Source: a virus. Taken from it: a stretch of 30,654 nt of DNA. The notes beneath the pieces were generated by a model. That model was not told the origin of the DNA. It did not search any database and saw nothing but the letters and a program-made list of their open reading frames with translations. Both the position numbers and the translations under genes were made by a program. The stretch spans positions 1 to 30,654 of the IMG/VR virus record IMGVR_UViG_3300032805_000014. The stretch is one strand, 5' to 3'. This document shows, one piece after another, positions 3,185 through 28,825 of this stretch (position 1 is its first letter; each line of letters opens with the position of its first letter).

Positions 3185-3216
3185 CAAGCGGCCCAAGGTC
3201 ACACGGCGTGTCGGAA

Positions 3217-3273: not shown

Positions 3274-3323
3274 CAACGGACATTTGCAACATCAGCACCA
3301 TCCGATCAAGAAAGGCAAGAGTC

Positions 3324-5421: not shown

Positions 5422-5595
5422 GTGACCCCCCTACCGCTACCCATGCCCACACGCACAACCCGGCGCCGCTGGTACGGCTGGCGCACCCGATGGAACGGGA
5501 AACGATTCCCCGTCACGGTAAGATCACGCCCAGTCGCCCCGGAACGGGGCAGCCCGAAACGGGAGCACCATGCCAGCACCCTTGGCTCCCCGTAA
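5422..5595 (+). CDS. Possible small basic protein
   Basis: 57-codon frame from GTG 5422 to TAA 5593-5595, overlapping the start of terminase small subunit. It includes TRTTRRRWYGWRTRWNGKRF, an Arg/Trp-rich basic stretch, then PVTVRSRPVAPERG. Its GTG would have been coupled (GTGA) to the sigma-like gene before the 76-bp insertion. Against it: no SD, and it covers a TAAGAT box and the leader hairpins of the terminase gene. Low-confidence call, function unknown. Confidence 0.3.
   Translation: MTPLPLPMPTRTTRRRWYGWRTRWNGKRFPVTVRSRPVAPERGSPKREHHASTLGSP
5519..5565 (+). promoter_or_regulatory. Late leader of terminase: TAAGAT box plus two NAA-loop hairpins
   Basis: TAAGAT at 5519-5524 is a good -10. 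It is followed by GCCCCG-GAA-CGGGGC (5536-5550) and CCCG-AAA-CGGG (5553-5563). The second hairpin overlaps the SD GGGAG (5561-5565), which precedes ATG 5570. Hairpin 1 begins 34 bases before the start codon. This is one of the leaders in the window sharing the CCG-NAA-CGG core, so it belongs to a family of late-gene start-associated elements. Confidence 0.5.
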
Positions 5596-6010
5596 ACGGG
5601 CAGCCGTCCTCAAAGACATCCGCGCCGGCCTCCCGCGCAACGAGATCGCGCGCAAACACAAGGTCAGCCAAGGCACCGTAACCGGCATCGCCAAAGCCGA
5701 ACATCTGACCGATGCTTTTGACCGGTCAGCGACCATAAAGGCCACGGCAGCGGCGCAGGCTGACCATCAGGCGATGCTCGCTGATCTGGCCGCGCGGCAC
5801 ATGAAGACGGCGAACGCGATCCTTGACAGTTTCGAGGGTGATCACGACTGGTCGGGTGTGTCGCCGCATACGCGGGCTATCGCGCTGGGGATCTGCTCGG
5901 ACAAGGCCCGTGAGCTAGCGCCTGACACTGACGGCCAGGCGGACGCGGCGAAGTCGCTGTTGTCTGCTGTGCTTGACGGCATGGTCGCCCGGCATGGCGA
6001 CGCTGCCTAG
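5570..6010 (+). CDS. terS: Terminase small subunit
   Basis: 146 residues, ATG at 5570 behind GGGAG. The N-terminal HTH (KRAAVLKDIRAGLPRNEIAR, KHKVSQGTVTGIAKAEHL) is the DNA-recognition domain, expected to bind the packaging site. A helical oligomerisation region follows (IKATAAAQADHQAMLADLAARH, then TRAIALGICSDKARELA). Its stop overlaps terminase large subunit by 17 bp, the usual TerS-TerL pairing. The protein recognises concatemeric DNA and recruits TerL. Base use shifts toward less GC-biased third positions around 5700-5990 compared with TerL, a possible sign of different ancestry. The exact subfamily is uncertain. Confidence 0.75.
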   Translation: MPAPLAPRKRAAVLKDIRAGLPRNEIARKHKVSQGTVTGIAKAEHLTDAFDRSATIKATAAAQADHQAMLADLAARHMKTANAILDSFEGDHDWSGVSPHTRAIALGICSDKARELAPDTDGQADAAKSLLSAVLDGMVARHGDAA

Positions 6011-7286
6011 CCTGTCGCTCGCGCAAGAGCGCTCCATCGCCCACTCAAACGCCCGCATCAACATCTGGGAAGGCGCAACCCGCGGCGGCAAAACCATGGC
6101 GTCCCTGCTCCGCTGGCTCTGCTACATCGCCACCGCACCCGCCGGCGAGCTAGCGATGGTCGGCCGCACACGCGACACCATCGGCCGGAACGCCATCCTG
6201 CAACTACAGGACCCGGCCCTATTCGGCACCGTCGCCCGGCACGTCTCCTACACCCTCGGCGCGCCGATCGCCACGATCCTCGGCCGCCGCGTCCACGTCT
6301 TCGGCGCGAACGACTCCCAAGCCGAAGCGAAAATCCGCGGCGGCACCTTCGCCGGCATGTACGGCGACGAACTGACCCTGCTGCCCAAAGCGTTCTTCAC
6401 CCAAGCACTCGGCCGGCTGTCAATACCGGGCTCCAAGTTCTACGGCACGACGAACCCCGGCTCGTCCGCGCACTGGCTCCGGAAAGACTTCCTGCTCCGC
6501 GAGGACGAGCTGGACTTGCGCGCGTTCCACTTCACCCTCGACGACAACCCAAGCCTGACAGACGAGTTCAAGACGTCGATCCGTGCAGAGTTCACCGGCC
6601 TGTTCTACAAACGGTTCGTCCTCGGTGAATGGTGCGCAGCCGAAGGCGCCGTGTACGACATGTTCGACACCGGCCGCCACGTCGTCGACGTCTGCCCCGT
6701 CATCAAACGGTGGCTGTGCTGCGCCATCGACTACGGCACAACGAACCCGCTCGCGGCGCTCGTGATCGGGCTGGGCACCGACAGCCGGCTCTACGTGGTC
6801 GCCGAGTGGTACTACGACTCCCGCGCACGGCACCGGCAGCTCACCGACGCCGAATACTCGATCAAGCTCCGCGAGTTCCTCGCCTCGGTGCGGTTCCCCG
6901 GCTCCCAGCTGCACGGCGTCAACCCCGAATGGATCGTCGTGGACCCGAGTGCGGCATCGTTCCGGCAGCAGCTATTCGCCGACCGGATGACCCCGCACGC
7001 CGGCGACAACGCCGTAGTCGACGGGATCCGGCTCGTGTCCAGCCTGCTCGCCAAAGACAAACTAATGATCCACAAGTCGTGTCAATACACGATTGAGCAG
7101 ATGTCGAGCTACTCGTGGGACGAGACAGCAGCCGGCAAAGGCGACGACAAGCCGATCAAGGTAGATGACCACGCCGTCGACGCGTTGCGTTATGGCGTTG
7201 TGACCACACGCGGGCTGTGGCGTCACGCCATCGGCCCCGTAGCACTCCCACCCGACCCGCAGACGACTTTCGCACTAGCCCGCTAA
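5994..7286 (+). CDS. terL: Terminase large subunit
   Basis: 430 residues from ATG 5994. ATPase: Walker A GATRGGKT (27-34), Walker B AGMYGDE with Asp125-Glu126, and a coupling-type motif GTTNPGSSAHW (151-161). RNase H-like nuclease: CCAIDYGTTNP with Asp246, WIVVDPSA with Asp317, and DDHAVDALRYG with Asp392/Asp396, so all three acidic positions are present. The protein pumps DNA into the procapsid through the portal and cuts the concatemer. Length and motif order fit the phage terminase families used by siphoviruses. It overlaps TerS and is followed by a 76-bp gap with a promoter and TGACGCC sites before portal. Confidence 0.95.
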   Translation: MATLPSLSLAQERSIAHSNARINIWEGATRGGKTMASLLRWLCYIATAPAGELAMVGRTRDTIGRNAILQLQDPALFGTVARHVSYTLGAPIATILGRRVHVFGANDSQAEAKIRGGTFAGMYGDELTLLPKAFFTQALGRLSIPGSKFYGTTNPGSSAHWLRKDFLLREDELDLRAFHFTLDDNPSLTDEFKTSIRAEFTGLFYKRFVLGEWCAAEGAVYDMFDTGRHVVDVCPVIKRWLCCAIDYGTTNPLAALVIGLGTDSRLYVVAEWYYDSRARHRQLTDAEYSIKLREFLASVRFPGSQLHGVNPEWIVVDPSAASFRQQLFADRMTPHAGDNAVVDGIRLVSSLLAKDKLMIHKSCQYTIEQMSSYSWDETAAGKGDDKPIKVDDHAVDALRYGVVTTRGLWRHAIGPVALPPDPQTTFALAR

Positions 7287-7306
7287 GGAACACCCGCCAC
7301 TACCGC

Positions 7307-7346
7307 TAAGATGCCACCTGACGCCGTCTGCGGCTCACGTGACGCC
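7307..7346 (+). promoter_or_regulatory. TAAGAT promoter with paired TGACGCC operators
   Basis: TAAGAT (7307-7312) is a candidate -10, which puts transcription start near 7319. TGACGCC occurs at 7319-7325 and 7340-7346, 21 bp apart and in the same orientation as the pair at 4686/4707. The second copy ends just before the portal SD (GGAG, 7352-7355). A protein bound here would sit on the start site. This is the only such pair found within the structural block. Confidence 0.5.
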
Positions 7347-7362
7347 ATCTTGGAGTTGCCTC

Positions 7363-9177: not shown

Positions 9178-9178
9178 C

Positions 9179-9469
9179 GTGGCTGCAAAGGGAAAGAAAC
9201 CGGCGCCGAACACGAAAGCACCCAAGGGCTCGTATGCGCTGCCAGGTGGCGGCCCGGGCGGCGCTGACGCCTACCCGATCAACACCCGCGGCCGTGCCGT
9301 GTCGGCGCTGTCGCGGGTGCAGGCGAACGGCACCCCGTCCGAGAAAGCCACCGTCCGCGCCGCCGTGGCGCGTAAATACCCGGATCTGCCGTCGTCCCAG
9401 GGGAAAGGCGGCTCGGCGGCCGCCGCGCACCACCGCAGAACAGCCCGCAGGGCAGGACGGAGCAAATGA
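9179..9469 (+). CDS. Small capsid-module protein with YPIN...VRAAV..KYP domain
   Basis: 96 residues, GTG 9179 one base after the portal stop, with AGGAG upstream. Basic and Gly-rich ends surround a short conserved unit, DAYPINTRGRAVSALSRVQA followed by GTPSEKATVRAAVARKYPDL. This pattern (YPI..., A..AL.R....G...E...VR.AV..KYP) recurs in phage head proteins and prohead-protease tails, although no enzymatic residues are present. The C-terminus is Ala/Arg-rich. It sits where a capsid maturation protease is often found, so it may be a remnant or a stand-alone helper in head assembly. Its exact role is unknown. Confidence 0.65.
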   Translation: MAAKGKKPAPNTKAPKGSYALPGGGPGGADAYPINTRGRAVSALSRVQANGTPSEKATVRAAVARKYPDLPSSQGKGGSAAAAHHRRTARRAGRSK

Positions 9470-9684
9470 CCATGATGCCCGCGTTGCCGCACAACACGAG
9501 CACCTGCAACCACGCCCCCGGAACGGGCGCGACCTGCAACCACGGCGCTGTCGGCGCGCATTTCGCCGGCCGCACCTACGTGCAGCCCGCCGCGAACGGT
9601 GCCGACCGTACCGCCGACATGCGCGACGGCGACGACGACCAGGGCACCACGGCACCCGTCCCGCCGCACACAGGAGCACCGTAA
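9466..9684 (+). CDS. Small protein with duplicated CNH motif
   Basis: 72 residues, ATG overlapping the previous stop (ATGA). It contains two Cys-Asn-His motifs eight residues apart (TCNHAPGTGATCNHGAVGAH), which could form one small metal site, followed by a flexible Ala/Pro/Asp-rich tail (DRTADMRDGDDDQGTT). No family is recognised. The overlap and head-module location favour a real gene. A CCCG-GAA-CGGG hairpin (9517-9527) lies inside the coding region. Confidence 0.45.
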   Translation: MTMMPALPHNTSTCNHAPGTGATCNHGAVGAHFAGRTYVQPAANGADRTADMRDGDDDQGTTAPVPPHTGAP

Positions 9685-9713
9685 ACCGCTTGCGCAAGTG
9701 AGCACTTTGACCC

Positions 9714-9742
9714 GCCGTAACGGCACGATCCTGCAACAGGAG
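9714..9742 (+). promoter_or_regulatory. Scaffold leader with two NAA-loop hairpins
   Basis: GCCG-TAA-CGGC (9714-9724) and CCTG-CAA-CAGG (9730-9740); the second overlaps the SD AGGAG (9738-9742) of the TTG-started scaffold gene at 9748. Hairpin 1 begins 34 bases before the start codon, the same distance as in the terminase leader. The perfect palindrome CTTGCGCAAG lies just upstream (9689-9698). Confidence 0.5.
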
Positions 9743-9747
9743 CAACG

Positions 9748-10467
9748 TTGACCACCGTTGTTGAGACACCCCCGGACGGGGCACCGGCCGAGCCTGTCCA
9801 GCCTGCCCCGGCACCGGCAGCGCCACCCGCGCCGCCGGCCGACACGACTGACTGGAAAGCCGAAGCCGACCGGTGGAAAGCCCAGGCACGCAAGAACGAA
9901 GACCGCTCGAAGGCCAACCACACCGAACTCACGCAACGCGACGAGGTGTTGCGGCTGATCGCCGAGAAAGTCGGCGTCCCATTCGACGGCAAACCCGACC
10001 CGGCAGTCCTGACCCGCCGGCTCGAGGAACAGACGACCCTCGCACGGCAGCGCGCCGTGGAACTCGCCGTGTTCTCCAGCGCAGCCGGGAAGGTCGACGC
10101 GACCGCGCTGCTCGACTCGCGGGACTTCATGTCGAAAGCATCAGCGCTCGACCCGGACGCCGCGGACTTCCGCGACCGCGTCGCTGAGATCGTCGCTGAG
10201 GCGTCGACGCAGCCCCGGTACCAGTTCCAGCAAGGACCGGGCCAGCCCGCGCCAGCGGCGGCCACGCAGGCACCGGCAGCGCCGCCCGCGGCAAGCTCGG
10301 GCGCGGATTTCAGCGGCGCACCTGGCGGTAACCGGCTGTGGACACAGGCCGACCTGGACAAGGCGACCCGGCCGGGCGCTGACCCGGCGATCCTGTCCAA
10401 GGCCATCAACGACGGGCTGCTCGTGAACCTCGGCATCGGGAAGCCTAAGCAGCGGCACCGCAGGTAG
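9748..10467 (+). CDS. Capsid scaffold protein
   Basis: 239 residues, TTG start at 9748 behind AGGAG. Composition and layout are those of a phage scaffold: a Pro/Ala-rich disordered N-terminus, a charged helical or coiled-coil centre (WKAEADRWKAQARKNEDRSK, then LTRRLEEQTTLARQRAVELA), then Ala/Gln/Pro-rich linkers and a basic C-terminal tail (GIGKPKQRHRR) suited to binding coat protein. It precedes the major capsid gene. The scaffold directs procapsid assembly and is lost before DNA fills the head. No protease domain is fused to it. Confidence 0.8.
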   Translation: MTTVVETPPDGAPAEPVQPAPAPAAPPAPPADTTDWKAEADRWKAQARKNEDRSKANHTELTQRDEVLRLIAEKVGVPFDGKPDPAVLTRRLEEQTTLARQRAVELAVFSSAAGKVDATALLDSRDFMSKASALDPDAADFRDRVAEIVAEASTQPRYQFQQGPGQPAPAAATQAPAAPPAASSGADFSGAPGGNRLWTQADLDKATRPGADPAILSKAINDGLLVNLGIGKPKQRHRR

Positions 10468-10470
10468 GAC

Positions 10471-10560
10471 GCCGCGCAACGCGGCTAAGATCGTCCACGA
10501 CGAGCCGGAACGGCCACATCTTCACCCGCAACGGGTACCACGACTACCCGTTATGAGGTG
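10471..10560 (+). promoter_or_regulatory. Major capsid leader: promoter and hairpin pair
   Basis: GCCGCG-CAA-CGCGGC (10471-10485) is followed at once by a TAAGAT -10 (10486-10491). Then come GCCG-GAA-CGGC (10504-10514) and ACCCG-CAA-CGGGT (10524-10536), and an SD AGGTGA before ATG 10571. With transcription starting near 10498, the hairpin pair would form almost the entire 5' end of the mRNA. The first hairpin of the pair starts 67 bases before the ATG, as in the major tail leader. Confidence 0.6.
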
Positions 10561-10570
10561 AAGACCCCCC

Positions 10571-11488
10571 ATGTCCGTGCTGAACTTTAAGCCGGAAGTC
10601 TGGAGCAAGGTCATCCTCTCGGCCGAGAAGAAGAACCTTGTCTTCGGCGGCCCCGGCATCGTCAACGACGATTACGAGGGTGAAATCTCCGGCCCCGGCA
10701 CCACGGTTCACATCACCCAGTTCGGTGACCCGACCATCTCGGACTACTCCCCGAACGAGACGATCTCCTACCAGTCGCTCGACGACGCCGGCCAAGAGCT
10801 GCTCATCGACCAGCGGAAGTACTTCGGGTTCACCGTCGATGACGTGGACAAGCGCCAGGCCGCCGGCGACATGCAGGCATACCTGGAAGACCGCGCGGCC
10901 TACAAACTGGCCGACACCGCTGACCAGTACATCGCCGGCCTCTACACCGGCGTGGCCTACGCGAACACCCTGACCGGCAACGACGGCAGCAACCCGTCAA
11001 CCAACAGCAACAACGGCCTTGAGCCGGCTGTGTACGCGTCGACCACCCCGGCTGACCTGTACCAGAAGGTCATCCTGCCTCTCAAGGTGAAGCTCGACGA
11101 GGCGTACGTGCCGCGGAAGAACCGCTACATCGTCATGCCGCCGTGGGCCGAGTCGCTACTTGAGCAGACGCAGGCGTTCATCGCGATCACCGACATGCGC
11201 GGGCAGGCGTCCGAGGTGTTCACGAACGGCATGATCGGCCGCGTCGCCGGCATGGACGTGTACATCTCGAACAACATGACCGAGTTCGACACCAGCCACA
11301 ACGGCTGGATCGTGCAGGCCGGTCACCCGATGGCGATCACCTTCGCCGAGCAGATCGTCCAGACCGAGGCGCTCCGGTTGCAGACCACCTTCGCTGACGC
11401 GGTTCGTGGCCTGCACGTTTACGGCGCGAAGCTCGTCCGGCCGGACCACATCGCTATCGCGGGCGTTGTCCGCCCGGCCGGAATCTGA
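10571..11488 (+). CDS. Major capsid protein (P22 coat-like)
   Basis: 305 residues, ATG 10571. Features of the P22-coat-like branch of HK97-fold capsid proteins: an N-terminal FKPEVWSKVILSAEKKNLVF, GTTVHITQFGDPTISDYS, the segment LDDAGQELLIDQRKYFGFTV DDVDK interrupted here as two motifs, a long spine helix region (MQAYLEDRAAYKLADTADQY), and a C-terminal part with FTNGMIGRVAGMDVYISNN and FADAVRGLHVYGAKLVRPD. It forms the icosahedral shell. Position after the scaffold gene supports the assignment. No N-terminal delta-domain is seen, in keeping with a separate scaffold. Confidence 0.9.
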   Translation: MSVLNFKPEVWSKVILSAEKKNLVFGGPGIVNDDYEGEISGPGTTVHITQFGDPTISDYSPNETISYQSLDDAGQELLIDQRKYFGFTVDDVDKRQAAGDMQAYLEDRAAYKLADTADQYIAGLYTGVAYANTLTGNDGSNPSTNSNNGLEPAVYASTTPADLYQKVILPLKVKLDEAYVPRKNRYIVMPPWAESLLEQTQAFIAITDMRGQASEVFTNGMIGRVAGMDVYISNNMTEFDTSHNGWIVQAGHPMAITFAEQIVQTEALRLQTTFADAVRGLHVYGAKLVRPDHIAIAGVVRPAGI

Positions 11489-11504
11489 GGGGAGGTAAGC
11501 AGAG

Positions 11505-11927
11505 ATGTCACGTACTGCACTCACGGCGACCGCGCTGACCCGCGACGCGGGCGCAGCTATCGGCGCAGGCTCGACCCCGGACGCGACCAACGGCAACATC
11601 GTCGCCTCGCCGGGCCCGTTCAAGCTGGGCATCCTCGTGTACAACGCGGACAGCTCGAACCACAACCTGTACATCCGCGCAGGCGGGTATGCGGGCGCGG
11701 CGACCGGTTCGGCGAACGCGTCGTACGCCACCGACCAGTACCAGCCGTTCGCGCAGGCGTCGGTCGGGGACCTGACCGTGTCCTGCCTGCACACCGGGGG
11801 TGGCTACACCCTGATTGAGGGCCTGACCACGGACCGCTACACGCAGTCCGACGGTTCGGTGTGGCTCGACTGGGCGTCATCGACGTCGATGACCGTGTGG
11901 GTTTGGACCCGGCCCTACCTGCCGTAA
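11505..11927 (+). CDS. Putative capsid decoration or head-fibre protein
   Basis: 140 residues, ATG 11505 behind GGGGAGG. Ser/Thr/Ala-rich and beta-predicted (FKLGILVYNADSSNHNLYIR, then GSVWLDWASSTSMTVWVWTR), with no basic helix. Its place directly after the major capsid gene is typical of decoration proteins, which stabilise the shell or bind host surfaces. Its general style matches the protein at 16226. The stop codon lies within the sequence CCGTAACGG, a partial copy of the leader hairpin. No family is recognised, so the role is inferred from context. Confidence 0.55.
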   Translation: MSRTALTATALTRDAGAAIGAGSTPDATNGNIVASPGPFKLGILVYNADSSNHNLYIRAGGYAGAATGSANASYATDQYQPFAQASVGDLTVSCLHTGGGYTLIEGLTTDRYTQSDGSVWLDWASSTSMTVWVWTRPYLP

Positions 11928-11941
11928 CGGAAGGGCCACGC

Positions 11942-12265
11942 GTGATGGGCAGCGTCAAGCTGAAGTGCGAGAACACCGGCATGGTGTTCGACTTCAGCTT
12001 GCCGCTGCCCTACGGCATCCAAAGGCAGCTCGACGGCGGGCACCTGCTCGACGTCACCGACGCTGAACCGGCCCCGGTCGTCCCGATCGGCGGGACCGTG
12101 GCCAGGCCACGGGGCAACGCATCCCACCAGGCGTGGATCGACTACGCGGCCACCCAGGGCATGGACCGCGCCGAGGCTGCGACGCTGACCCGTGACCAGC
12201 TCCGGGGCCGGTTCACCCAGCCCGTGTTCGACCCCGACAGCCCACCGGACCTGGAGGCCGCCTGA
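11942..12265 (+). CDS. Head-tail region protein of unknown function
   Basis: 107 residues from GTG 11942 (or ATG 11945), with GAAGGG upstream. The first half is beta-rich (SVKLKCENTGMVFDFSLPLP), followed by a Pro-rich linker. The last third, SHQAWIDYAATQGMDRAEAA then LTRDQLRGRF, forms a two-helix unit resembling small C-terminal domains found on connector-region proteins of actinophages. The gene sits between capsid decoration and the head-tail adaptor and its stop overlaps the adaptor start (TGATG). Its function is not known; assembly of the connector is the likely setting. Confidence 0.55.
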   Translation: MMGSVKLKCENTGMVFDFSLPLPYGIQRQLDGGHLLDVTDAEPAPVVPIGGTVARPRGNASHQAWIDYAATQGMDRAEAATLTRDQLRGRFTQPVFDPDSPPDLEAA

Positions 12266-13023
12266 TGGCCACGCTGCAAACGCAGTCCAACGCCGCGTCC
12301 GACGTTTTCCCCGGCGGGCAGACCACGTTCAAAGTGCAGTTCGAGACGTTCCTGAACTCCGGTGTCCCGTGCGGTGCCAGTGGTGTGACCATCGGCATCG
12401 CTGCCTCCGGTGCGGCGGATAGTGGCAGCGGGACACCGGTCTCGACCACCTCGGCGGGTGTCACCGCGCTCGGCACCGGCCTGTACGAGTACGTGTGGAC
12501 CGTCCCGACCGCGACGGCAGCCGGCTCGTACCTTGTGGTGTGGAGCGGCACCCGCGATTCCGACAGCGTGTCCGTCATATACACGCAGGCCGTGAACGTG
12601 GCGGCGGTCGCCGAGACGGTGCCGCTTCCCGGCTGCTACGCGTCGGTGGCGCAGTACCGGGCATGGTCCGGCGACCAGGTCACCCCGGCTAGCCGTGTCA
12701 CCATCGCGTTGCAGCGGGCGACCGAGCAGATGGACGTCGCTCTCGTCGCCGCCGTGTACCGCGTCGACGCCGACGGGATGCCACTCGACGCCGCCCTGGC
12801 CAACGTGCTCGTCAGGGCGACGTCGGCTCAGGCGCAGTACATCATCGCCGTGAACGATGACGCGAACGTTAAGCGTGAGTACGCGTCCACCTCCGTCGCG
12901 GGGGTGTCCGCCAGCAGGGCCGCGCACATGCAGGCGCTCGCGCTCCCACCGATAGCACCGCAAGCACTAGCAATTCTCCGCGTGGCAGGCGTCCTGCCAG
13001 CAGCCCCGTTGGTCAACTGGTAA
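12265..13023 (+). CDS. Head-tail adaptor with N-terminal Ig-like domain
   Basis: 252 residues. Residues 1-110 form a beta-sandwich: GGQTTFKVQFETFLNSG, then LYEYVWTVPTATAAGSYLVV and WSGTRDSDSVSVIYTQAVNV, resembling BppU-type Ig-like domains. Residues about 124-200 match the helical head-tail connector (gp6/gp15-like) pattern, with CYASVAQYRAWSGDQVT, IALQRATEQMDVALVAAVYR and ANVLVRATSAQAQYIIA. Adaptor rings bind beneath the portal. An Ig-like domain fused to an adaptor is unusual, and a similar one occurs at the start of the distal tail protein (21945). The fusion is seen directly; the domain names are my reading. Confidence 0.7.
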   Translation: MATLQTQSNAASDVFPGGQTTFKVQFETFLNSGVPCGASGVTIGIAASGAADSGSGTPVSTTSAGVTALGTGLYEYVWTVPTATAAGSYLVVWSGTRDSDSVSVIYTQAVNVAAVAETVPLPGCYASVAQYRAWSGDQVTPASRVTIALQRATEQMDVALVAAVYRVDADGMPLDAALANVLVRATSAQAQYIIAVNDDANVKREYASTSVAGVSASRAAHMQALALPPIAPQALAILRVAGVLPAAPLVNW

Positions 13024-13039
13024 GGAGCAAAGCAGCAAA

Positions 13040-13633
13040 ATGGCTATTACTCTCCCCGCGAATGTCGCTCCCGGCTCGCCGGTCACGTACGAGTTCTACC
13101 AGCAGTTCATCGAGCCACTCGCGCAGGCCGACAACGCGTCCGGGCTGACCGCGCACGGCACAGCTGTCTCGAACGCCACCACGAACACGGCGCTGATCAC
13201 CGTCCCAGCGGCGACGATCCAGTCCAACGCCGTCGCCGGCAGCGTGTTCAAGCTCCGCGCCCAGCTCATCATCTCCGCCCCGGCGTCCGCCGGCGCCACC
13301 CTCGCGTTCAACGGCTACTCGGGCGGCTCGTCCGGCACCGCGCTGGCCACCATGACCGCGTTCACGCCGACCGCGTCGCTGTCGTCCGCGCTCGCCGACG
13401 TCGAGATGTGGGTGAACTTCTACTCCACCACCACCGCGCAGTGCTCGGTCGTGGCCCGTATCTCGTCCAGCACGTCCACCGCCGCCGCGGCGGTGTACCT
13501 GGCGGGGAGCAACTCGGCGACCCCGGTCACCGTCACCGTTAACTCGTCGCTGACCCTGAACGCTGTGATGGGCTCGGCTGTGTCCGGCAGCACCTACGAG
13601 GCGATAGCCGCGTACTGGGCGCAGGAAGCCTGA
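13040..13633 (+). CDS. Beta-rich structural protein
   Basis: 197 residues, ATG 13040 behind AAGGAG. It has a Ser/Thr/Ala-rich beta pattern throughout (VFKLRAQLIISAPASAGATL, VEMWVNFYSTTTAQCSVVAR, TPVTVTVNSSLTLNAVMG). There is no charge cluster or helix, and no catalytic motif. Similar Thr/Ser-rich proteins of 150-200 residues recur among the late genes here (16226, 27710, 28241). It could be a surface decoration or fibre-like protein of the head or neck. The exact role is unknown. Confidence 0.5.
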   Translation: MAITLPANVAPGSPVTYEFYQQFIEPLAQADNASGLTAHGTAVSNATTNTALITVPAATIQSNAVAGSVFKLRAQLIISAPASAGATLAFNGYSGGSSGTALATMTAFTPTASLSSALADVEMWVNFYSTTTAQCSVVARISSSTSTAAAAVYLAGSNSATPVTVTVNSSLTLNAVMGSAVSGSTYEAIAAYWAQEA

Positions 13634-13665
13634 CTCCACCAGGGCAAGCTCAGTGAGGGGCAGAG

Positions 13666-13968
13666 ATGCACGCCGGCGGAACGTTGATCACTGTTCTCGG
13701 CGCGCTGGTCGTCGCGCTCGGCGTCATCGCGGCCGGGCTGCGCTGGATCTACCAGCAGGGCAGTTCCAGCCAGAAACTCGTCAACTCGATCGACGGGAAC
13801 ACGTTCGCGACGAACAAGCTGTCGATGGCGTTCGAGAAGTTCAGCGAGCAGACGGATAACAAGCTGACCGACCACGAGCACCGGCTGACCCGCGTCGAAG
13901 ACAAGTTCGCGGACCTGCACGATGACGTCCGGGCCGGGCGGAGAGGTGTGGACGCCAGTGGTAGCTGA
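13666..13968 (+). CDS. Small membrane protein with coiled coil, holin-like
   Basis: 100 residues, ATG 13666 behind GAGGGG. Residues about 4-25 (GGTLITVLGALVVALGVIAA) are one transmembrane helix, followed by LRWIYQQGSSSQKLVNSIDG and a predicted coiled coil (KLSMAFEKFSEQTDNKLTDH, EHRLTRVEDKFADLHDDVR). This N-TM plus C-terminal coil layout is seen in small phage membrane proteins sometimes annotated as holins or DUF2746. Its location inside the connector genes, away from any endolysin, makes a holin role uncertain. The 3' end overlaps the next gene by up to 47 bases. Confidence 0.55.
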   Translation: MHAGGTLITVLGALVVALGVIAAGLRWIYQQGSSSQKLVNSIDGNTFATNKLSMAFEKFSEQTDNKLTDHEHRLTRVEDKFADLHDDVRAGRRGVDASGS

Positions 13969-14305
13969 GGTTCAGAACACGACGGTGTCGGTGCTCCGAG
14001 GTACCGCGAGCAACGCTTTCGGTGACACCGTGGACCTCAACGAGGCGATCGTTGAGGGGTTGCCTGCGCTGCTTGCCGAGACCGGTAAGCATGTGCAGGA
14101 CCCCTCAACGTCGCATCCGCGGACGATCCGCGAGGTGGCCTGTCATGTGCCGCAGTACGCGGGGGTGCTGAACACTGACCGGATTCTGGACGAGTCCACC
14201 GGCAACATCTTCATGATCATCGGCATTGTGACACCGCCGACGATCATCGGCGCACCCGTGGACACGGTGCTCCAACTCAAGCGCGTTACCGCCAACACGG
14301 GCTAA
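13922..14305 (+). CDS. Putative head-tail stopper (head closure)
   Basis: Up to 127 residues. The start is uncertain: ATG 13922 gives a long overlap without SD, while GTG 13946 or 13958 lies after GGAGAGG. The body (VSVLRGTASNAFGDTVD, YAGVLNTDRILDESTGNIF, IIGIVTPPTIIGAPVDTVLQ, LKRV) is a small beta-barrel with the D..TG..F.I.G...P pattern of head-closure proteins. The order adaptor, stopper, gp10-like, tail terminator supports this role. Stopper rings close the capsid and form the tail-docking surface. The membrane-protein gene sits between adaptor and stopper, an uncommon arrangement. Confidence 0.6.
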   Translation: MTSGPGGEVWTPVVAEVQNTTVSVLRGTASNAFGDTVDLNEAIVEGLPALLAETGKHVQDPSTSHPRTIREVACHVPQYAGVLNTDRILDESTGNIFMIIGIVTPPTIIGAPVDTVLQLKRVTANTG

Positions 14306-14315
14306 CGTTCGCCGC

Positions 14316-14444
14316 ATGGGAATCATCCTGCTGTTCCCGCTCAGACGCCGCCGCCGGCGCCGCAAGGACCCGAACCGGCTCACCGTCCGTAGCTGCATGA
14401 AGGCCGCAGCCCGTCGCCACGCCGAACGGGCAGCAGTCCGCTAA
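14316..14444 (+). CDS. Possible Arg-rich mini-protein
   Basis: 42-codon frame, ATG 14316 to TAA 14442-14444. The product begins MGIILLFPL, then seven consecutive arginines and a lysine, and ends in a basic helix (SCMKAAARRHAERAAVR). The stop codon is part of the TAAGAT box that follows. No SD is visible. A short hydrophobic end followed by a strong positive cluster could be a membrane-anchored or nucleic-acid-binding peptide. Low confidence because it is short and isolated. Confidence 0.3.
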   Translation: MGIILLFPLRRRRRRRKDPNRLTVRSCMKAAARRHAERAAVR

Positions 14445-14530
14445 GATCAGTCACGTCACCGGCCCGGAAACGGCCCGTGACAGCCGTCAGGACGCCGTAA
14501 CGGCGCAGCGCGCGGCCAGCCCGTAACGGG
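14442..14530 (+). promoter_or_regulatory. Leader of gp10-like gene: TAAGAT box plus hairpin pair
   Basis: TAAGAT (14442-14447), a GGCC-CGGAAAC-GGCC fold near 14461, then GCCG-TAA-CGGC (14494-14504) and CCCG-TAA-CGGG (14520-14530). The order and loop rule match the other late leaders. Downstream is a 14-codon frame from GTG 14541 whose TGA (14583-14585) overlaps the ATG at 14585, possibly a leader peptide. Confidence 0.5.
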
Positions 14531-14572
14531 AACCCCTTCAGTGGCTTTCCCGGCAGACGGGCAGGCAGGCGG

Positions 14573-14956
14573 GTGCGTCTCGTGATGGAACCAGGGTGGC
14601 AGGAGGAAGTTCTCGCTGCCTCTGACGAGATGTTCCTGACCCGCCTTGGCCCCGAGATCGCCGCATCCGCGAAGGATTACTGCCCCGTCTTCGGCGGCGC
14701 GCACTCCACCGCCACAAGCGATTCCCTCGCCGCCGCTGGCCGCGACGAAGAACCCGGCGCGCTCCGCGACTCCATCGAGTTCCACCTAGAGCTGCATTCG
14801 CTGATCGTGTCCGCCACCGGCAGCAGCGAACGCAGCTACGCCGCCTACGTCGAACTGGGGCACCGTGTCGTCGCCTGGGGCCACGACACCGGCACCGAGA
14901 AGCAGCCGCAGCCGTTCCTGCGGCCCGCGCTGTACCAGTTGCGAGCCGCCGCGTGA
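14573..14956 (+). CDS. HK97-gp10-like tail completion protein
   Basis: 127 residues from GTG 14573, or 123 from ATG 14585. It follows the HK97 gp10 pattern: an N-terminal helix MEPGWQEEVLAASDEMFLTR, then LGPEIAASAKDYCPV, GALRDSIEFHLEL, YAAYVELGHRVVAWGHDTG and QPFLRPALYQLRAA, in which the E-x-G and P-F-L-R-P-A-L signatures are clear. These proteins join the tail to the connector or cap the tail tube. The SD is weak. The stop overlaps the next gene as GTGA, which links it to the tail terminator. Confidence 0.8.
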   Translation: MRLVMEPGWQEEVLAASDEMFLTRLGPEIAASAKDYCPVFGGAHSTATSDSLAAAGRDEEPGALRDSIEFHLELHSLIVSATGSSERSYAAYVELGHRVVAWGHDTGTEKQPQPFLRPALYQLRAAA

Positions 14957-15432
14957 CAATCGCGACGCTGCACACCCCGACCGACCTTGTCGCCGTCGCC
15001 TGGGTGAAGACGATCCCCGGCCTCGTCGCCGACGGGGTCGCGACGCAGCTACCGGCCGACGAAACAACGTGGGCGTCGAACGGTTTCGTCGTCGTCCCCG
15101 CGACCGTTGGCGGCACCCCGCACCAGAACATCCCCGTCCGCCGGCCCGTGTGCCAGGTCGAATGCTGGGCGACGGTCCCCGGCTCCGACAAGCTCCCGTG
15201 GGGGATGGCGAACGCGCTCGCCGAGCAGATCCGCGCCGGCACCTACGACCGGACCACGTTCGGCCGGCCGCTCAACATCGTCGCCGGCGGTGTCACCTAC
15301 CCCACCGCGCGGGTCATATCGGCCCGGTGCCACACAGAACCGCGCCGGATCTGGTCCGACGCGGGTGACTACGCCGGTTTCACATTCGATCTCGGACTTC
15401 AGTGGGTGGCAGCAGGAGAGGTGGTCCAGTAA
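14953..15432 (+). CDS. Tail terminator protein
   Basis: 159 residues, GTG overlapping the previous stop. The order (after gp10-like, before the tail tube) and the fold pattern fit tail terminators: an N-terminal helix with AWVKTIPGLVADGVATQLP, then NIPVRRPVCQVECWATVPGS, LPWGMANALAEQIRAGTY, and a final strand set (DYAGFTFDLGLQWVA). Tail terminators form the ring that stops tube polymerisation and docks the tail to the head. Sequence similarity in this family is low, so the assignment rests mostly on order. The next gene overlaps as TAATG. Confidence 0.7.
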   Translation: MTIATLHTPTDLVAVAWVKTIPGLVADGVATQLPADETTWASNGFVVVPATVGGTPHQNIPVRRPVCQVECWATVPGSDKLPWGMANALAEQIRAGTYDRTTFGRPLNIVAGGVTYPTARVISARCHTEPRRIWSDAGDYAGFTFDLGLQWVAAGEVVQ

Positions 15433-16043
15433 TGGCGTCCACGCCCAAGAAGACGACCACGACGACGAAGACGGTCAACAACAAGACGGGCATCACGAAG
15501 TCGTCAACGACTACCAAGTCGGGTGGTTCGACCACGACGACGAAGACGACGACCATCGGCAAACCCGCGAGCGTCTCGACGGCCAAGAAGACGGTGGCCA
15601 CGCCGGCGAAGGCCGCAGGTGAGATGCTCGCCGCGCGGTGGATCACCGGCCCGAACGACGACGGCTGGACCATGTGCGGCCCCGTCGCGATAGCCAACCA
15701 CCTGCTCGCCGCGACCGGCGTCGAAGCGTCCAACGCCGACGTTGAGCGGCTCTACAAGGCCGCCGGCGCCATCGGGGACTCTGGCGCACCGCTGGAGTTC
15801 TTTCTCGCCGCAGCCGCAGGCACAGGGCTCGCCGGGTGCCGCCTGGCGAGCTACGGCCGGGTGTGCCTGCCGGACGCCGGGGTGCTGCTGCTCGCCATCG
15901 GCGGCGTCGATGACCTGCACGCCGCAGCTAGAACCCGTGACGGCCGCGTCGTCCTGTGGGGCGACGACGTCGAGCTCGAAACGCTCGGCGCGCTCGTCCT
16001 AGACGCCTGGTCGCTGACCTGGCACGGAAAGGAGATCCGCTAA
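15432..16043 (+). CDS. C39-like papain-fold cysteine peptidase
   Basis: 203 residues, ATG 15432 overlapping the previous TAA. Residues 1-62 are low-complexity Thr/Lys/Ser (TTTTTKTVNNKTGITKSST), a flexible basic arm. The remainder resembles a peptidase C39/papain-like fold: DDGWTMCGPVAIANHLLAAT with Cys82 as the likely nucleophile, GVDDLHAAARTRDGRVVLWG with His163, and Asp178-Asp179 as the third residue. Its place between tail terminator and major tail protein suggests processing of a virion protein or action on the host wall. No export signal is seen. Family recognition is moderate; activity is inferred from conserved residues only. Confidence 0.55.
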   Translation: MASTPKKTTTTTKTVNNKTGITKSSTTTKSGGSTTTTKTTTIGKPASVSTAKKTVATPAKAAGEMLAARWITGPNDDGWTMCGPVAIANHLLAATGVEASNADVERLYKAAGAIGDSGAPLEFFLAAAAGTGLAGCRLASYGRVCLPDAGVLLLAIGGVDDLHAAARTRDGRVVLWGDDVELETLGALVLDAWSLTWHGKEIR

Positions 16044-16222
16044 TGCCGCTTGTTCACCTCACGCTCTTTGAGGAGCCGGTGGAACGCACCGCCGAGCAGA
16101 TCGAAGAACTGCGGCTCGCCGGCCTGGTCCGCGAGCCCGACGCCAAGCCGCCGGCCCCTTCGCCGGCACCAGCTAAAGCACCTGTCCCGGCCGCCCCGGC
16201 GCCGGCTAACACGAAGGAGTAA
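16043..16222 (+). CDS. Small Pro/Ala-tailed protein
   Basis: 59 residues, ATG overlapping the peptidase stop (TAATG), with AAGGAG upstream. The N-terminal 35 residues (VHLTLFEEPVERTAEQIEEL, RLAGLVREPD) are a short strand and helix. The rest is a Pro/Ala/Lys linker (PPAPSPAPAKAPVPAAPAPA). It is co-translated with the peptidase and might be its partner or substrate, but no function is recognised. Confidence 0.55.
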   Translation: MPLVHLTLFEEPVERTAEQIEELRLAGLVREPDAKPPAPSPAPAKAPVPAAPAPANTKE

Positions 16223-16225
16223 TCG

Positions 16226-16582
16226 GTGGCTTCTCAGACCTTGACGCCGACCCAGTTCGTCGCTGACGGCGCCGGCCAGGACATTACGGCGCTGCTCGCC
16301 GCCCCAACGCAGACGACGTTGCAGTTCGCGAACACCGGCAGGGAGATCCTGTTCGTCGCCGCCGCCTCGACCAGCGAGACGGTGACGGTGGACGTCGGCG
16401 CGCTCGTGGACGGCCAGGCGGTGACGAACTTCAGCGCCGTGACCCTGACCAACGGCCACACCGTCGCGTTCGGCCCGTTCCATTCGGTGCTCGACCAGTC
16501 CGGCACGAACACGGTGCAGGTAGTGCTGTCGACCACGTCGAGCATCACCGTCGCCCTGCTGCAAACCGTAGGCGTCTACTGA
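16226..16582 (+). CDS. Small beta-sandwich structural protein
   Basis: 118 residues, GTG 16226 with AAGGAG overlapping the end of the previous gene. It is almost purely beta-predicted: TTLQFANTGREILFVAAAST, ETVTVDVGALVDGQAV, HTVAFGPFHSVLDQSG, NTVQVVLSTTSSITVALLQ. The NTG-x3-LF-V...VTV pattern occurs in small phage decoration-type proteins. A virion decoration or tail-tube-associated role is likely from context. It is followed by a GC hairpin and the leader of the major tail gene, so it ends a transcription unit. Confidence 0.5.
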   Translation: MASQTLTPTQFVADGAGQDITALLAAPTQTTLQFANTGREILFVAAASTSETVTVDVGALVDGQAVTNFSAVTLTNGHTVAFGPFHSVLDQSGTNTVQVVLSTTSSITVALLQTVGVY

Positions 16583-16584
16583 CC

Positions 16585-16603
16585 CAGCGCGCGCCGCGCG
16601 CTG
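16585..16603 (+). terminator. GC hairpin after the connector block
   Basis: CAGCGCGC-GCC-GCGCGCTG is a perfect 8-bp stem with a 3-base loop, two bases after the stop of the gene ending at 16582. No U-tract follows. It probably separates the connector genes from the tail operon as a terminator or pause site. Confidence 0.5.
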
Positions 16604-16630
16604 CGCTCTGACCTGCTCAATCCGATCGGT

Positions 16631-16690
16631 GCCGTAACGGCGCAACCAGATGACCCGCAACGGGTGACCTATCCGACTCACCTCGCGGAG
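16631..16690 (+). promoter_or_regulatory. Major tail leader with NAA-loop hairpin pair
   Basis: GATCGGTGCCGTAACGGCGC contains GCCG-TAA-CGGC (16631-16641). ACCCG-CAA-CGGGT follows at 16653-16665, then GACTCACC and the SD GCGGAG (16685-16690) before ATG 16698. Hairpins start 67 and 45 bases before the ATG. The same order and distances recur at 27643. The upstream words TGACCTGCT and GATCGGTGCCG are also shared with that copy. Confidence 0.65.
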
Positions 16691-16697
16691 TTATCAC

Positions 16698-17285
16698 ATG
16701 GCCATCCAGCCACTTAACGTCTGCATGGGGCCGGCGAGCGTGTACTGGGCACCGTTCGGCTCAACAGAACCCGCCTACTCGGCGATCACGTCCGCGCCGT
16801 CCAGTTCGGTGTGGACCGACGTCGGCGGCACCACCGACGGAAGCTCGATCCTGCTCGAAGTCGAGCACACGTTCACCGACATCCACTGCGAGCAGCTGAT
16901 CGACCCGATCGGCGCGCGCCTGTCCAAGCGGGTAATCCAGGTCACCGTGTCGCTGGAAGAGGCGACGCTGAACAACCTGAACCTGGCGATGAACCAGCTC
17001 ACCACCCAGACCAGCGGCTCCGGCTACACCGTCCTCGACCCGCTGTCGACGGTCGGTTCGACGCAGCCGTCCTACATGGCGATCATTCTCGACGGGTGGG
17101 CGCCGACGACCGGCACGTCGGAGACGTCCTGCCGGCGCCGGATGATCATCCGTAAGTGCTTGTCCAGCAGCAAGGTCGACCTGGAGTACGAGAAGACCAA
17201 GCCTGCGGTGTTCAACACCACCTGGACAGGTTTCTGGGTGTCGTCCAGCATCGCCCCCTTCGAGATCGTCGACCAAACGAGCTGA
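16698..17285 (+). CDS. Major tail tube protein
   Basis: 195 residues, ATG 16698 behind GCGGAG. The beta-barrel pattern fits siphoviral major tail proteins: ASVYWAPFGSTEPAYSAITS, SVWTDVGGTTDGSSILLEVE, RVIQVTVSLEEATLNNLNLA, then MIIRKCLSSSKVDLEYEKTK and a terminal strand FWVSSSIAPFEIVD. It forms the stacked hexamer rings of the tail tube. It precedes the two tail chaperone genes and the tape measure, the canonical order. The elaborate leader suggests strong expression. No Ig-like C-terminal domain is present. Confidence 0.85.
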   Translation: MAIQPLNVCMGPASVYWAPFGSTEPAYSAITSAPSSSVWTDVGGTTDGSSILLEVEHTFTDIHCEQLIDPIGARLSKRVIQVTVSLEEATLNNLNLAMNQLTTQTSGSGYTVLDPLSTVGSTQPSYMAIILDGWAPTTGTSETSCRRRMIIRKCLSSSKVDLEYEKTKPAVFNTTWTGFWVSSSIAPFEIVDQTS

Positions 17286-17292
17286 GGCGACC

Positions 17293-17703: not shown

Positions 17704-18029
17704 CCGACCACCTAGACGACGTCATCAGCGACCTATCAGCCTTTCACCGGATCGACGACGCGGGAGAGATGGAGGCGGCAGTGTTTTTCAAGCTCATCTA
17801 CCGTCTCCCCGCCTACCGGGGCGTGATCGGGAACCTCGCCGCGCAAGCGCAGCAGGGCACGGCTAGCCGTGGTCGGGCACCGTCGAGCTACGAACGCGGC
17901 TCCGCGATGGAGAACAACGCCCGTGTCGCCGACCACGCCCCGCCGGCGACGGGCGCGAAACTCGCGGAACTGTCCGCCAGCCTAGGCGGCGGATGGATCA
18001 GCCACCGGGTGGTGAAGGCCGGTGGCTGA
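17293..18029 (+). CDS. Tail assembly chaperone fusion (gpGT-like) by -1 frameshift
   Basis: Joins 17293-17664 with 17664-18029, predicted 245 residues. In the zero frame ACC-CCA-AAA is followed by GAG; a -1 slip on CCCAAAA (17658-17664) moves into REAEERLTQIGWVTDHLDDV and then ISDLSAFHRIDDAGEMEAAV, FFKLIYRLPAYRGVIGN. This second part matches the T region of actinophage chaperones, and its conserved LGWVTDH-like stretch begins upstream of the GTG at 17700, so the fusion is the natural product. The T part may also be made alone from GTG 17700, but that is less likely. The tail (PATGAKLAELSASLGGG) runs into the tape-measure start. Confidence 0.8.
17658..17664 (+). promoter_or_regulatory. -1 programmed frameshift site CCCAAAA
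   Basis: X-XXY-YYZ heptamer C-CCA-AAA in the zero frame of the gpG-like gene. The -1 frame is open from here through 18029 and encodes the conserved T region. This matches the known use of such sites between G and T in lambda-like tails. Confidence 0.85.
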
Positions 18030-23222: not shown

Positions 23223-23232
23223 GAGGCGACTG

Positions 23233-26995: not shown

Positions 26996-27621
26996 CCACG
27001 TTCCCGAAGTCGCTTCAGTCGAAGCTGGCGTCCACGATCAAGACGGCGACGACGACGCTGGCGCTGCACACGCAGCAGATCACCACATTGCAGTCCGTGA
27101 CCAATCAGACGACGACGCAGCTGCCCGGCCCGTGGAGCCTGATCACGTTGCAGGGCGGGTGGTCGAACGTGTCCGGTGCGATCGCCGCGCAGTGGCGCGG
27201 GGCGAGCACCACCACCACCGAGATCATCGGGAACATCCGCGGCGGGACGACCAGCGACGGGACGGTCATCGGGTACATCCCGTCTGGTTTCTTCAACACT
27301 GTGTATGTGCATTGGATCGGCGCGGTCGCGGTGGCGGGGGCGTCGTCGGTGACGATCAGCGGCAGCGTGACCGATGGTTTCGTCTCCGAGGGTGAACTGA
27401 TCAACGGCACGTCGTCAGTGTCGGGCAGCACTGCGACGCTTAACGACCTGTACCTGCACGCCACGCAGGCGCTTAACAACACTGCGACGACGTCGACCGT
27501 GAACTACAACCGTCCGTGCATCAAGGTCGGCACGGACGGGTCGCTGACGCTCTACAACGTCAACTCGCACGTGACGCAGCTCAGTTTCCACGATCCCAGC
27601 TTGCCGCTGTTCACGCAGTGA
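26992..27621 (+). CDS. Tail-tip or fibre-like protein
   Basis: 209 residues, ATG overlapping the hub stop. A short N-terminal coiled-coil helix (SLQSKLASTIKTATTTLALH, TQQITTLQSVTN) probably trimerises it and attaches it to the tail. A beta-rich body follows (WSLITLQGGWSNVSGAIAAQ, FFNTVYVHWIGAVAVAGASS, VTISGSVTDGFVSEGELING), ending at TDGSLTLYNVNSHVTQLSF. It resembles small receptor-facing proteins found after the hub in actinophages. Receptor binding is plausible but unproven. Confidence 0.6.
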   Translation: MTTFPKSLQSKLASTIKTATTTLALHTQQITTLQSVTNQTTTQLPGPWSLITLQGGWSNVSGAIAAQWRGASTTTTEIIGNIRGGTTSDGTVIGYIPSGFFNTVYVHWIGAVAVAGASSVTISGSVTDGFVSEGELINGTSSVSGSTATLNDLYLHATQALNNTATTSTVNYNRPCIKVGTDGSLTLYNVNSHVTQLSFHDPSLPLFTQ

Positions 27622-27642
27622 CCTGCTAGTACTTTGATCGGT

Positions 27643-27703
27643 GCCGCAACGGCGCGCCATGCCTACCCGCAACGGGTGAACCTCTTGACTCACCCTGCGG
27701 GAG
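27643..27703 (+). promoter_or_regulatory. Late leader with NAA-loop hairpin pair, copy at 27643
   Basis: GATCGGTGCCGCAACGGCGC contains GCCG-CAA-CGGC (27643-27653); ACCCG-CAA-CGGGT lies at 27665-27677; GACTCACC and GCGGGAG (27697-27703) precede ATG 27710. Hairpins start 67 and 45 bases before the ATG, identical to the major tail leader. A T-for-C change in the first loop (TAA to CAA) leaves the stem intact. The upstream TACTTT (27630-27635) could be a -10. Confidence 0.65.
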
Positions 27704-27709
27704 CGCCAG

Positions 27710-28141
27710 ATGGCCAACAACCCGTACTTCGCGGACGCGACCACCATCGCGTCGGTGAACGCGGTCACGGTCCTGCTGAACAGCGGCTACCTGGAGATTT
27801 ACAACGGGGCGCAGCCGACTGACGCGAACACCGCGATCGGTTCCCAGACGTTGCTGTCGAACGGCCTGCGGTTCTCATCGACGGCGTTCGGCGCCGCCAC
27901 GGCGTCCGGGTCGGCCGGCTCGAAGGTGGTGACGGCGACCGCGAACTCGATCACCACCGACACGTCCGCGGCGGCGACCGGGACAGCGTCGTGGTTCCGG
28001 GCGTACAAGTCGGACGGCACGACGGTGGTGATGGACGGCTCGGTGGGCACGGCGGGCTGTGACCTGAACCTGAACACGACGTCGATCGTGTCGGGCGGCA
28101 CGGTCGCGGTGACAAGCTTCACGATCACCCAGAGCGAGTAA
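27710..28141 (+). CDS. Phage structural protein of the 140-residue beta family
   Basis: 143 residues, ATG 27710 behind GGGAG. It carries a pattern repeatedly seen in phage late genes: VTVLLNSGYLEIYNGAQPTD, QTLLSNGLRFSSTAFGAAT, ATGTASWFRAYKSDGTTVVM, DGSVGTAGCDLNLNTTSIVS, TVAVTSFTIT. The family is known only as a structural or tail-fibre-associated protein of unknown detail. It has its own hairpin leader, so it is expressed as a separate late unit rather than through coupling. Confidence 0.65.
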   Translation: MANNPYFADATTIASVNAVTVLLNSGYLEIYNGAQPTDANTAIGSQTLLSNGLRFSSTAFGAATASGSAGSKVVTATANSITTDTSAAATGTASWFRAYKSDGTTVVMDGSVGTAGCDLNLNTTSIVSGGTVAVTSFTITQSE

Positions 28142-28170
28142 GCACGCTTCTATTGCACGGCCTGGACGGT

Positions 28171-28234
28171 GCCGTAACGGCGCGCGAGACACCAGCCCGC
28201 AACGGGCAGCCAAACCAACTCACCGTTGCGGGAG
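28171..28234 (+). promoter_or_regulatory. Late leader with NAA-loop hairpin pair, copy at 28171
   Basis: GCCG-TAA-CGGC (28171-28181), GCCCG-CAA-CGGGC (28195-28207), then ACTCACC and GCGGGAG (28228-28234) before ATG 28241. The second stem closes with G-C here and with A-T in other copies, so the base pair is kept while the bases change. Distances to the ATG are 70 and 46 bases. Confidence 0.65.
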
Positions 28235-28240
28235 CATCCC

Positions 28241-28825
28241 ATGTCGTTCTACTCCGGTACCCAGACCGAAGTCCTGTTCTCCGGGCCGCCAGCGAACTAC
28301 ACCGCCGCGGCGGCGTCATCGTCGTCGGCGCAGTCCCTCGTCGCCGGCGCGACCGGTAACTACCAGCAGCCGCTCCTGCCTGGCGGGTTCTGGCAGCAGG
28401 GCCGCCAAGGGCAGCTCGTCTCGTTCGAGTTCTCCATCCTGCTGTCGTGCCAGTCGTCGGCGACGACCACGACGATCATCGCGGGGCTGGACACTGCGGC
28501 GAACACGATCGGCGGTTCGACGCTGCTGACCTACCCGGCGCTGACCACCACGTCCTACTCCAGCGGCTCGCTGTATGGCGCTGGGATCATCCAGAACCGT
28601 GGCTCGGGCTACGGCACTAGCTCGGTGGCGACGAACCTGCTGTCGTCCGGCTGGCTCATCGGCACGGGTAACTCGGCGACCGTGTCCGGCGCGGCCGGGC
28701 CGACCGCGTTGCAGACGATCGACTTCTCGGTGAACCAGTGGTTTTACCTGACGGTGACGTTCTCGACGTCGTCCGCCTCGAACAGCGCGACTTTGGAGTC
28801 GCTGATTGTGCGCGGCGAGAACTAA
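28241..28825 (+). CDS. Beta-rich late structural protein
   Basis: 194 residues, ATG 28241 behind GCGGGAG. Ser/Thr/Gly-rich with a regular strand pattern: GQLVSFEFSILLSCQSSATT, TIIAGLDTAANTIGG, then TIDFSVNQWFYLTVTFSTSS and ASNSATLESLIVRGEN at the end, a typical jelly-roll finish. No catalytic motif. It is probably a tail-tip or capsid surface protein. The individual hairpin leader suggests it is made in quantity. Confidence 0.55.
   Translation: MSFYSGTQTEVLFSGPPANYTAAAASSSSAQSLVAGATGNYQQPLLPGGFWQQGRQGQLVSFEFSILLSCQSSATTTTIIAGLDTAANTIGGSTLLTYPALTTTSYSSGSLYGAGIIQNRGSGYGTSSVATNLLSSGWLIGTGNSATVSGAAGPTALQTIDFSVNQWFYLTVTFSTSSASNSATLESLIVRGEN

Follow-up and report, generated by a model that had tools for sequence, protein, structure and literature searches.

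Late genes of one phage are preceded by pairs of small hairpins with NAA loops, which we describe here as a probable translational RNA element. The phage is represented by IMG/VR record IMGVR_UViG_3300032805_000014. The window analysed is the whole 30,654-base record, a linear fragment. Comparable pairs occur in other actinobacteriophages at the ribosome-binding sites of scaffold and terminase small subunit (terS) genes. This suggests that ratios of assembly proteins are set by translational control. We conclude, on comparative grounds, that the hairpin pair is a real sense-strand RNA element because tests of covariation, strand asymmetry and loop identity (NAA versus NTT) agree. Our preferred reading, to which we give a probability of roughly 0.55, is that the pair acts in cis as a translational operator. 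It would be read by a phage RNA-binding protein, with scaffold protein the leading candidate and autoregulation the outcome. All support is comparative. Many loci are metagenomic fragments and the aligned sequences are related, although some sets were cleared of near-duplicates. Large collections were scanned by pattern, and sets defined by hairpin 2 and an ATG served only as matched sets for testing an RNA model. This model, R1, was built from nine leaders.

The hairpins are oriented with respect to transcription. Counted outside the search pattern in some 0.8 Mb of fetched phage DNA, CCG-NAA-CGG has 164 sense and 35 antisense occurrences. When a fourth stem pair was included the counts were 103 and 8. 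NAA hairpins were present in 28 of 31 leaders of scaffold genes found by protein similarity. Likewise, R1 finds 25 of 30 scaffold loci chosen by protein similarity (8 of the 30 were also training sequences). Across 22 scaffold leaders, hairpin 1 has a stem of 9 bp, in which pairs 4-6 often include one mismatch. The covariation score of this hairpin was 0.519, compared with 0.128 ± 0.026 in shuffles (0/500), and control structures slid from the true position scored at most 0.123. Stem changes are compensatory, with G-U pairs among them. The loop AA of hairpins 1 and 2 is kept as the stems drift.

An independent set was assembled from sites fetched only for hairpin 2, GGGAG and ATG, giving 106 distinct sites among the matches listed. 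On the same basis, a second G-NAA-Y loop lies 17-26 nt upstream in 54 of the 106, and outer stem cells are paired in 242 of 324 cases (shuffle mean 143, maximum 169). Also among the matches listed, R1 matched 35 of 74 loci with NAA loops but 1 of 74 with NTT loops. The paired-hairpin pattern itself was found in 99 stretches with NAA loops and 7 with NTT loops. The covariation, strand and independent-set tests do not depend on the pattern given in a preliminary description of the window. The geometry is fixed; the loops are 19-22 nt apart and hairpin 2 mostly ends 6-14 nt before the ATG. In the scaffold leaders examined, the Shine-Dalgarno sequence lies in the 3' arm of hairpin 2. The preliminary description had proposed a translation or stability element, or a protein-binding site. 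Covariation, sense-only occurrence, the fixed position relative to the Shine-Dalgarno and ATG, and occurrence in relatives picked by protein similarity all argue for a translational RNA element.

A third hairpin lies within the scaffold coding sequence. Here, within the stretch encoding PTETVDFW, the codons CCG ACC GAA ACG GTC GAC fold as CGACCG-AAA-CGGTCG. The wobble bases of the proline and valine codons change together (CCG/GTC, CCC/GTG and CCA/GTT). Pairing at the wobble positions was found in 36 of 39 cases, compared with 22.4 expected (permutation p 5e-5), and in 28 of 31 compared with 17.4 after removal of near-duplicates. The varying positions are synonymous and, hence, the constraint acts on RNA. 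Codon choice in the loop is biased. GAA accounts for 30 of 45 loop codons but 286 of 946 glutamate codons of the same genes; for ACG the figures are 37 of 45 and 220 of 689 threonine codons. This loop is looser (ANA) than those of hairpins 1 and 2.

In the independent set, among the matches listed, all 31 distinct sites supported by the model are followed by a scaffold or terS gene. These genes were named by eye, from sequence features common to annotated members. The complete genomes of three Mycobacterium phages (TChen, IdentityCrisis, phiGD21-1) and of Gordonia phage PhorbesPhlower each contain a single R1 match, located at the gene annotated as scaffolding. In Curtobacterium, Paenarthrobacter and Klugiella prophages the element precedes terS and a second copy follows about 4.4 kb further on; in the Curtobacterium prophage this copy precedes scaffold. 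The layout recurs, with CGCG stems, in Streptomyces phages phiSASD1 and Dubu. Among 297 actinomycete genomes, only one, already known, gave a match under strict filters that weak copies may escape. Capsid proteins accompanying element-bearing scaffold genes belong to at least five PHROG families. Hence, the scaffold gene is the constant partner. Searches with the scaffold proteins of loci L018 and L037 found no named phage.

At L150 (phiGD21-1, MW314857.1; position 2779), L148 and L149, the hairpins contain the annotated scaffold start or lie downstream of it. Just beyond hairpin 2 stands ATGTCCGA, most likely the true start in each case, and these genes appear misannotated. At L004, L015, L024, L068, L075, L077, L084 and L093, the pair lies entirely inside a gene that begins MSADAAD or similar, in its first ~20 codons.

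The window carries a siphovirus late operon with genes for terS, terL, portal, scaffold, major capsid (PHROG 267), neck, tail and tape measure proteins. Megablast of the window against named phages gave no match. The motif CCGNAACGG occurs 21 times, compared with 3.1 ± 1.8 in dinucleotide shuffles, and none of 100 shuffles reached 21. Hairpins with an NAA triloop and a stem of at least 4 bp number 24 on the coding strand (shuffle mean 6.5, maximum 12) and 6 on the other strand. Lone CCGNAACGG matches within other genes (9518 and 11922, and 1458 and 23299 on the minus strand) are probably background. As first described, seven late-gene leaders each hold two NAA-loop hairpins, and all positions proved correct; the coordinates below refer to the plus strand.

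Two leaders are compact, with hairpin 1 beginning 34 bases before the start codon, and are separated by 4.2 kb. For terS, hairpin 1 is GCCCCG-GAA-CGGGGC (5536-5550). Hairpin 2, CCCG-AAA-CGGG (5553-5565), runs into the Shine-Dalgarno GGGAG ahead of the ATG at 5570. The R1 match covers 5537-5565 (E 1e-5). For scaffold, hairpin 1 is GCCG-TAA-CGGC (9714-9724) and hairpin 2 is TCCTG-CAA-CAGGA(G) (9729-9742, stem-loop 9729-9741), with an R1 match at 9712-9742 (E 1.8e-4). The 3' arm of this hairpin 2 is the Shine-Dalgarno AGGAG and the TTG start is at 9748. Hence, the CCG-NAA-CGG family proposed for all seven leaders holds in general but not for scaffold hairpin 2, which is a compensated version of CCCG-NAA-CGGG. 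Relatives L117-L123 have the scaffold-type hairpin 2, CCTG-NAA-CAGGAG.

The hairpins of the remaining leaders were detected by scan, and R1 also matched most of them. Major capsid has GCCG-GAA-CGGC (10504-10514) and ACCCG-CAA-CGGGT (10524-10536), the latter kept in L117, L118, L119, L121, L122 and L123. The gp10-like (tail completion/neck) leader has CGCCG-TAA-CGGCG (14493-14505) and CCCG-TAA-CGGG (14520-14530); its start codon is uncertain (GTG 14573 or upstream). Major tail has GCCG-TAA-CGGC (16631-16641) and ACCCG-CAA-CGGGT (16653-16665), and L038 has the same arrangement. A virion structural gene at 27710 (PHROG 3758) is preceded by GCCG-CAA-CGGC (27643-27653) and ACCCG-CAA-CGGGT (27665-27677). 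The last leader, of gene 28241, has GCCG-TAA-CGGC (28171-28181) and GCCCG-CAA-CGGGC (28195-28207). Hairpin 1 starts exactly 67, 67, 67 and 70 bases upstream of the ATGs at 10571, 16698, 27710 and 28241, and hairpin 2 starts 45-47 bases upstream.

The preliminary description did not include two properties of hairpin 2. In the compact form it contains the Shine-Dalgarno. In the extended form its rival is a nested hairpin in which the Shine-Dalgarno is buried, and this nested hairpin, not hairpin 2, is the minimum free energy fold of the long leaders. Briefly, the Shine-Dalgarno takes up the 5' side of hairpin 2, and the intervening segment pairs with the 3' side. For major capsid, the nested hairpin (10519-10564) combines CTTCACC/GGTGAAG with AACGGGTA/TACCCGTT and buries the Shine-Dalgarno (minimum free energy -24.3; 0/300 shuffles as low). 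For major tail it spans 16649-16695 and buries GCGGAG at 16685-16690 (-20.9; 0/300). For gene 27710 it spans 27661-27706 and buries GCGGGAG at 27697-27703 (1/300). The competing hairpin of gene 28241, CCCGCAACGG/CCGTTGCGGG (28196-28232), buries GCGGGAG at 28228-28234 (1/300). Overall, 11 of the 13 extended leaders have a nested fold whose energy was reached by no more than 10 in 300 shuffles of the downstream segment.

An extra perfect hairpin, GCCGCG-CAA-CGCGGC, lies at 10471-10485, upstream of the capsid leader and beside a TAAGAT box. Perfect CG-YAA-CG hairpins followed by a -10-like TAnnAT box recur upstream of the capsid region (window 10471-10491, L119, L122, L072 and L081). The boxes are TAAGAT, TAGGAT, TAGTAT and TATGAT. 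This arrangement may represent a promoter plus operator, or an additional member of the NAA hairpin family. For the leader hairpins themselves, a promoter reading was rejected or left unsupported on testing. No plus-strand site resembling an intrinsic terminator was found in 9400-17000.

The preliminary description linked the hairpins to the high expression needed for capsid and tail genes. Those leaders are indeed present. However, the widespread sites are scaffold and terS genes and, judged from this distribution, the spread over seven genes in the window phage is an unusual, lineage-specific expansion. The description also named absence from close relatives as a refuting result, and the outcome was the opposite. 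Among seven capsid relatives at 73-77% identity, six (L117, L118, L119, L121, L122 and L123) carry the pair roughly 70 nt ahead of the capsid gene; the seventh, L120, has a disrupted start at the match. A search with the tail protein found one relative.

The Shine-Dalgarno is the 3' arm of hairpin 2 in the compact form and is buried by the competitor in the extended form. Hence, we strongly infer that the pair controls translation initiation. In the mechanism that we propose, two hairpins with G-NAA-C/U loops, ~20 nt apart from loop to loop, would stand directly upstream of a late gene in the mRNA. At scaffold and terS, closed hairpin 2 would block the ribosome. At capsid, tail and other structural genes, hairpin 2 would compete with the nested hairpin to give a switchable leader. 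Such switching is possible according to the predicted folds, from which we infer the ON and OFF states. A phage RNA-binding protein recognising the NAA loops would most likely set the state of the leader. A protein ligand is probable because the stems drift but the loop AA is kept, and because the loops found there in other phage groups are different. Scaffold is favoured since its gene is the one consistent carrier of the element, and the sole carrier in four genomes, and since, by analogy, the P22 scaffold lowers its own synthesis. With scaffold as the reader, the ratio of scaffold to capsid would be under autogenous control.

Several observations weigh against this scheme. The choice of scaffold as the ligand is its least certain part and is circumstantial; among the scaffolds tried, Pfam gave no recognised RNA-binding domain common to the element-bearing subfamilies. 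The pair is absent from capsid relatives at 57-65% identity, and this loss in more distant relatives shows that the element is dispensable for capsid genes. In the extended leaders, enforcing hairpin 2 costs 1.4 to 13.4 kcal/mol relative to the nested fold. Since the difference reaches 13 kcal/mol, a switch would need co-transcriptional capture. With hairpin 2 enforced, the Shine-Dalgarno is predicted to become more accessible in only 8 of 12 such leaders.

Two other leads to a reader were followed. Comparison of the window's early genes with PHROGs revealed no known RNA-binding regulator. A basic scaffold motif, W-K-x-x-A-R, was considered as the binder and was weakened by L025, L135 and L152, which have the element without the motif. 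It was weakened further by the scaffold of Streptomyces phage Ignacio, which matches that of the window at the motif yet has different hairpins. A bolder proposal, which we think improbable, is that free scaffold senses stoichiometry. It would close the scaffold and terS sites, where hairpin 2 includes the Shine-Dalgarno, and open those of capsid, tail and other structural genes, where forming hairpin 2 would disrupt the nested hairpin. If so, the state of virion assembly would be fed back to translation of the whole regulon.

In some phage groups, other loops occupy the same position. L131 and L132 (150 nt before 5001, a capsid gene) and L188 (before 4001) have the same layout with GCAC/GCAT tetraloops, not NAA. 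L173 and L175 have one GCAC hairpin (hairpin 1) and one AAA hairpin, as if one reader takes both. Tetraloop hairpin sequences in the L131/L132, L188 and L173/L175 group are GCCCGCACGGGC, ACCCGCATGGGT and GTCCGCATGGAC. In the scaffold leader of Ignacio (L191, 5333-5432), two GGCCCGC-CAGGA-GCGGGCC hairpins are found in place of NAA. Variation of loop type by phage group, at the same place, fits a phage-encoded reader.

The reader could instead be a host factor, such as a ribosomal protein or other actinobacterial RNA-binding protein, co-opted by phages. Consistent with this, the element occurs in phages with unrelated capsids, several scaffold subfamilies and several host genera. However, it is nearly absent from host genomes outside prophages (1/297), and the different loops used by some phage groups also point away from a shared host protein. 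We consider a host reader doubtful. Somewhat less likely again is a passive device with no ligand, acting on translation or mRNA stability as a structured stand-by site, as a stabiliser of the 5' end or as a kinetic trap that confines translation to nascent mRNA. Tandem hairpins can stabilise mRNA, and a nested fold so strongly favoured at equilibrium would suit a co-transcriptional time window. Conversely, a passive stem needs no conserved loop, yet AA is kept in hairpins 1 and 2 while the stems drift, and NTT loops in the same layout are not enriched.

Antitermination sites for processive transcription (nut- or put-like) are a very improbable explanation. Two tandem hairpins recall the layout of HK022 put, and the sites are spread along the late operon. 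However, they lie mid-operon at Shine-Dalgarno sequences, the scaffold gene is often the sole site in a genome, and a third hairpin is within coding sequence. Least credible is a DNA operator, either repressor palindrome or stoperator; the repeats are palindromic and oriented with transcription, and a separate TCCCGNTTCGGGA palindrome array at 3216-3280 of the window looks like one, but the sense-only loops, compensatory stem changes including G-U pairs, spacing between hairpins that varies among the leaders compared, and synonymous covariation inside coding sequence all argue for RNA. As a separate observation, window positions 3205-3290 contain three tandem TCCCG(T/G)TTCGGGA palindromes, resembling operator sites for a DNA-binding regulator. 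Two read CCCGAAACGGG on the minus strand and are scored by R1, in an orientation opposite to the genes.

The balance between scaffold, coat and terminase synthesis in tailed phages is a long-standing question. The element is a defined, covariation-supported RNA target at the scaffold gene of culturable Mycobacterium, Gordonia and Streptomyces phages. Hence, the question becomes a simple reporter and binding experiment. The element also corrects start codons in phage annotation, and might be used as a compact translational control part for actinobacteria.

The hairpin pair is apparently undescribed; no prior description was found in the literature searched or in Rfam. In the window, Rfam gave no match to the element at gathering score or with E ≤1. 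In five relatives it gave one weak, unrelated sRNA match, elsewhere than the element. We rate the pair, from sequence comparison, as a putative new RNA family within a known kind, phage translational operators. In P22, scaffold lowers its own synthesis by post-transcriptional control in the late operon. We know of no RNA target of the hairpin-pair kind mapped for P22 autoregulation. Control of a late-operon scaffold gene after transcription is the likeness; the phage and host differ. The operators of MS2 and Qbeta involve a small hairpin at a start site, closed by the coat protein, which takes part in virion assembly; the Qbeta triloop is UAA-like. These are RNA phages, however, with one hairpin and other genes.

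The gene 43 operator of T4 and RB69 acts in autogenous translational repression (PMC3014915). It has a hairpin ~40 nt upstream of the AUG, with a UAAC/CAAC loop, and overlaps the ribosome-binding site (PMC3014915). Both systems place conserved hairpins at or just upstream of a ribosome-binding site; the likeness is of layout only, with no homology claimed. The T4/RB69 operator has one hairpin at a DNA polymerase gene, whereas here two or three G-C-closed NAA-triloop hairpins occur at scaffold, terS and other late genes. Chai et al. (1997, as cited in PMC6316719) reported that the terminase of SPP1 represses its own synthesis. By analogy, this may be a precedent for terS as a target. In cluster K mycobacteriophages, start-associated sequences (SAS; 13 bp, GGGATAGGAGCCC) and 17-bp extended start-associated sequences (ESAS) are found at translation starts in the non-structural half of the genome and have no known function (PMC3203893). 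They are likewise repeated inverted repeats at translation starts of actinophage genes. The preliminary description held the hairpins to be distinct, and GGGATAGGAGCCC has no match in the window at up to 2 mismatches. Furthermore, SAS and ESAS are confined to non-structural genes, whereas the hairpin pair targets terS, scaffold, capsid and tail genes.

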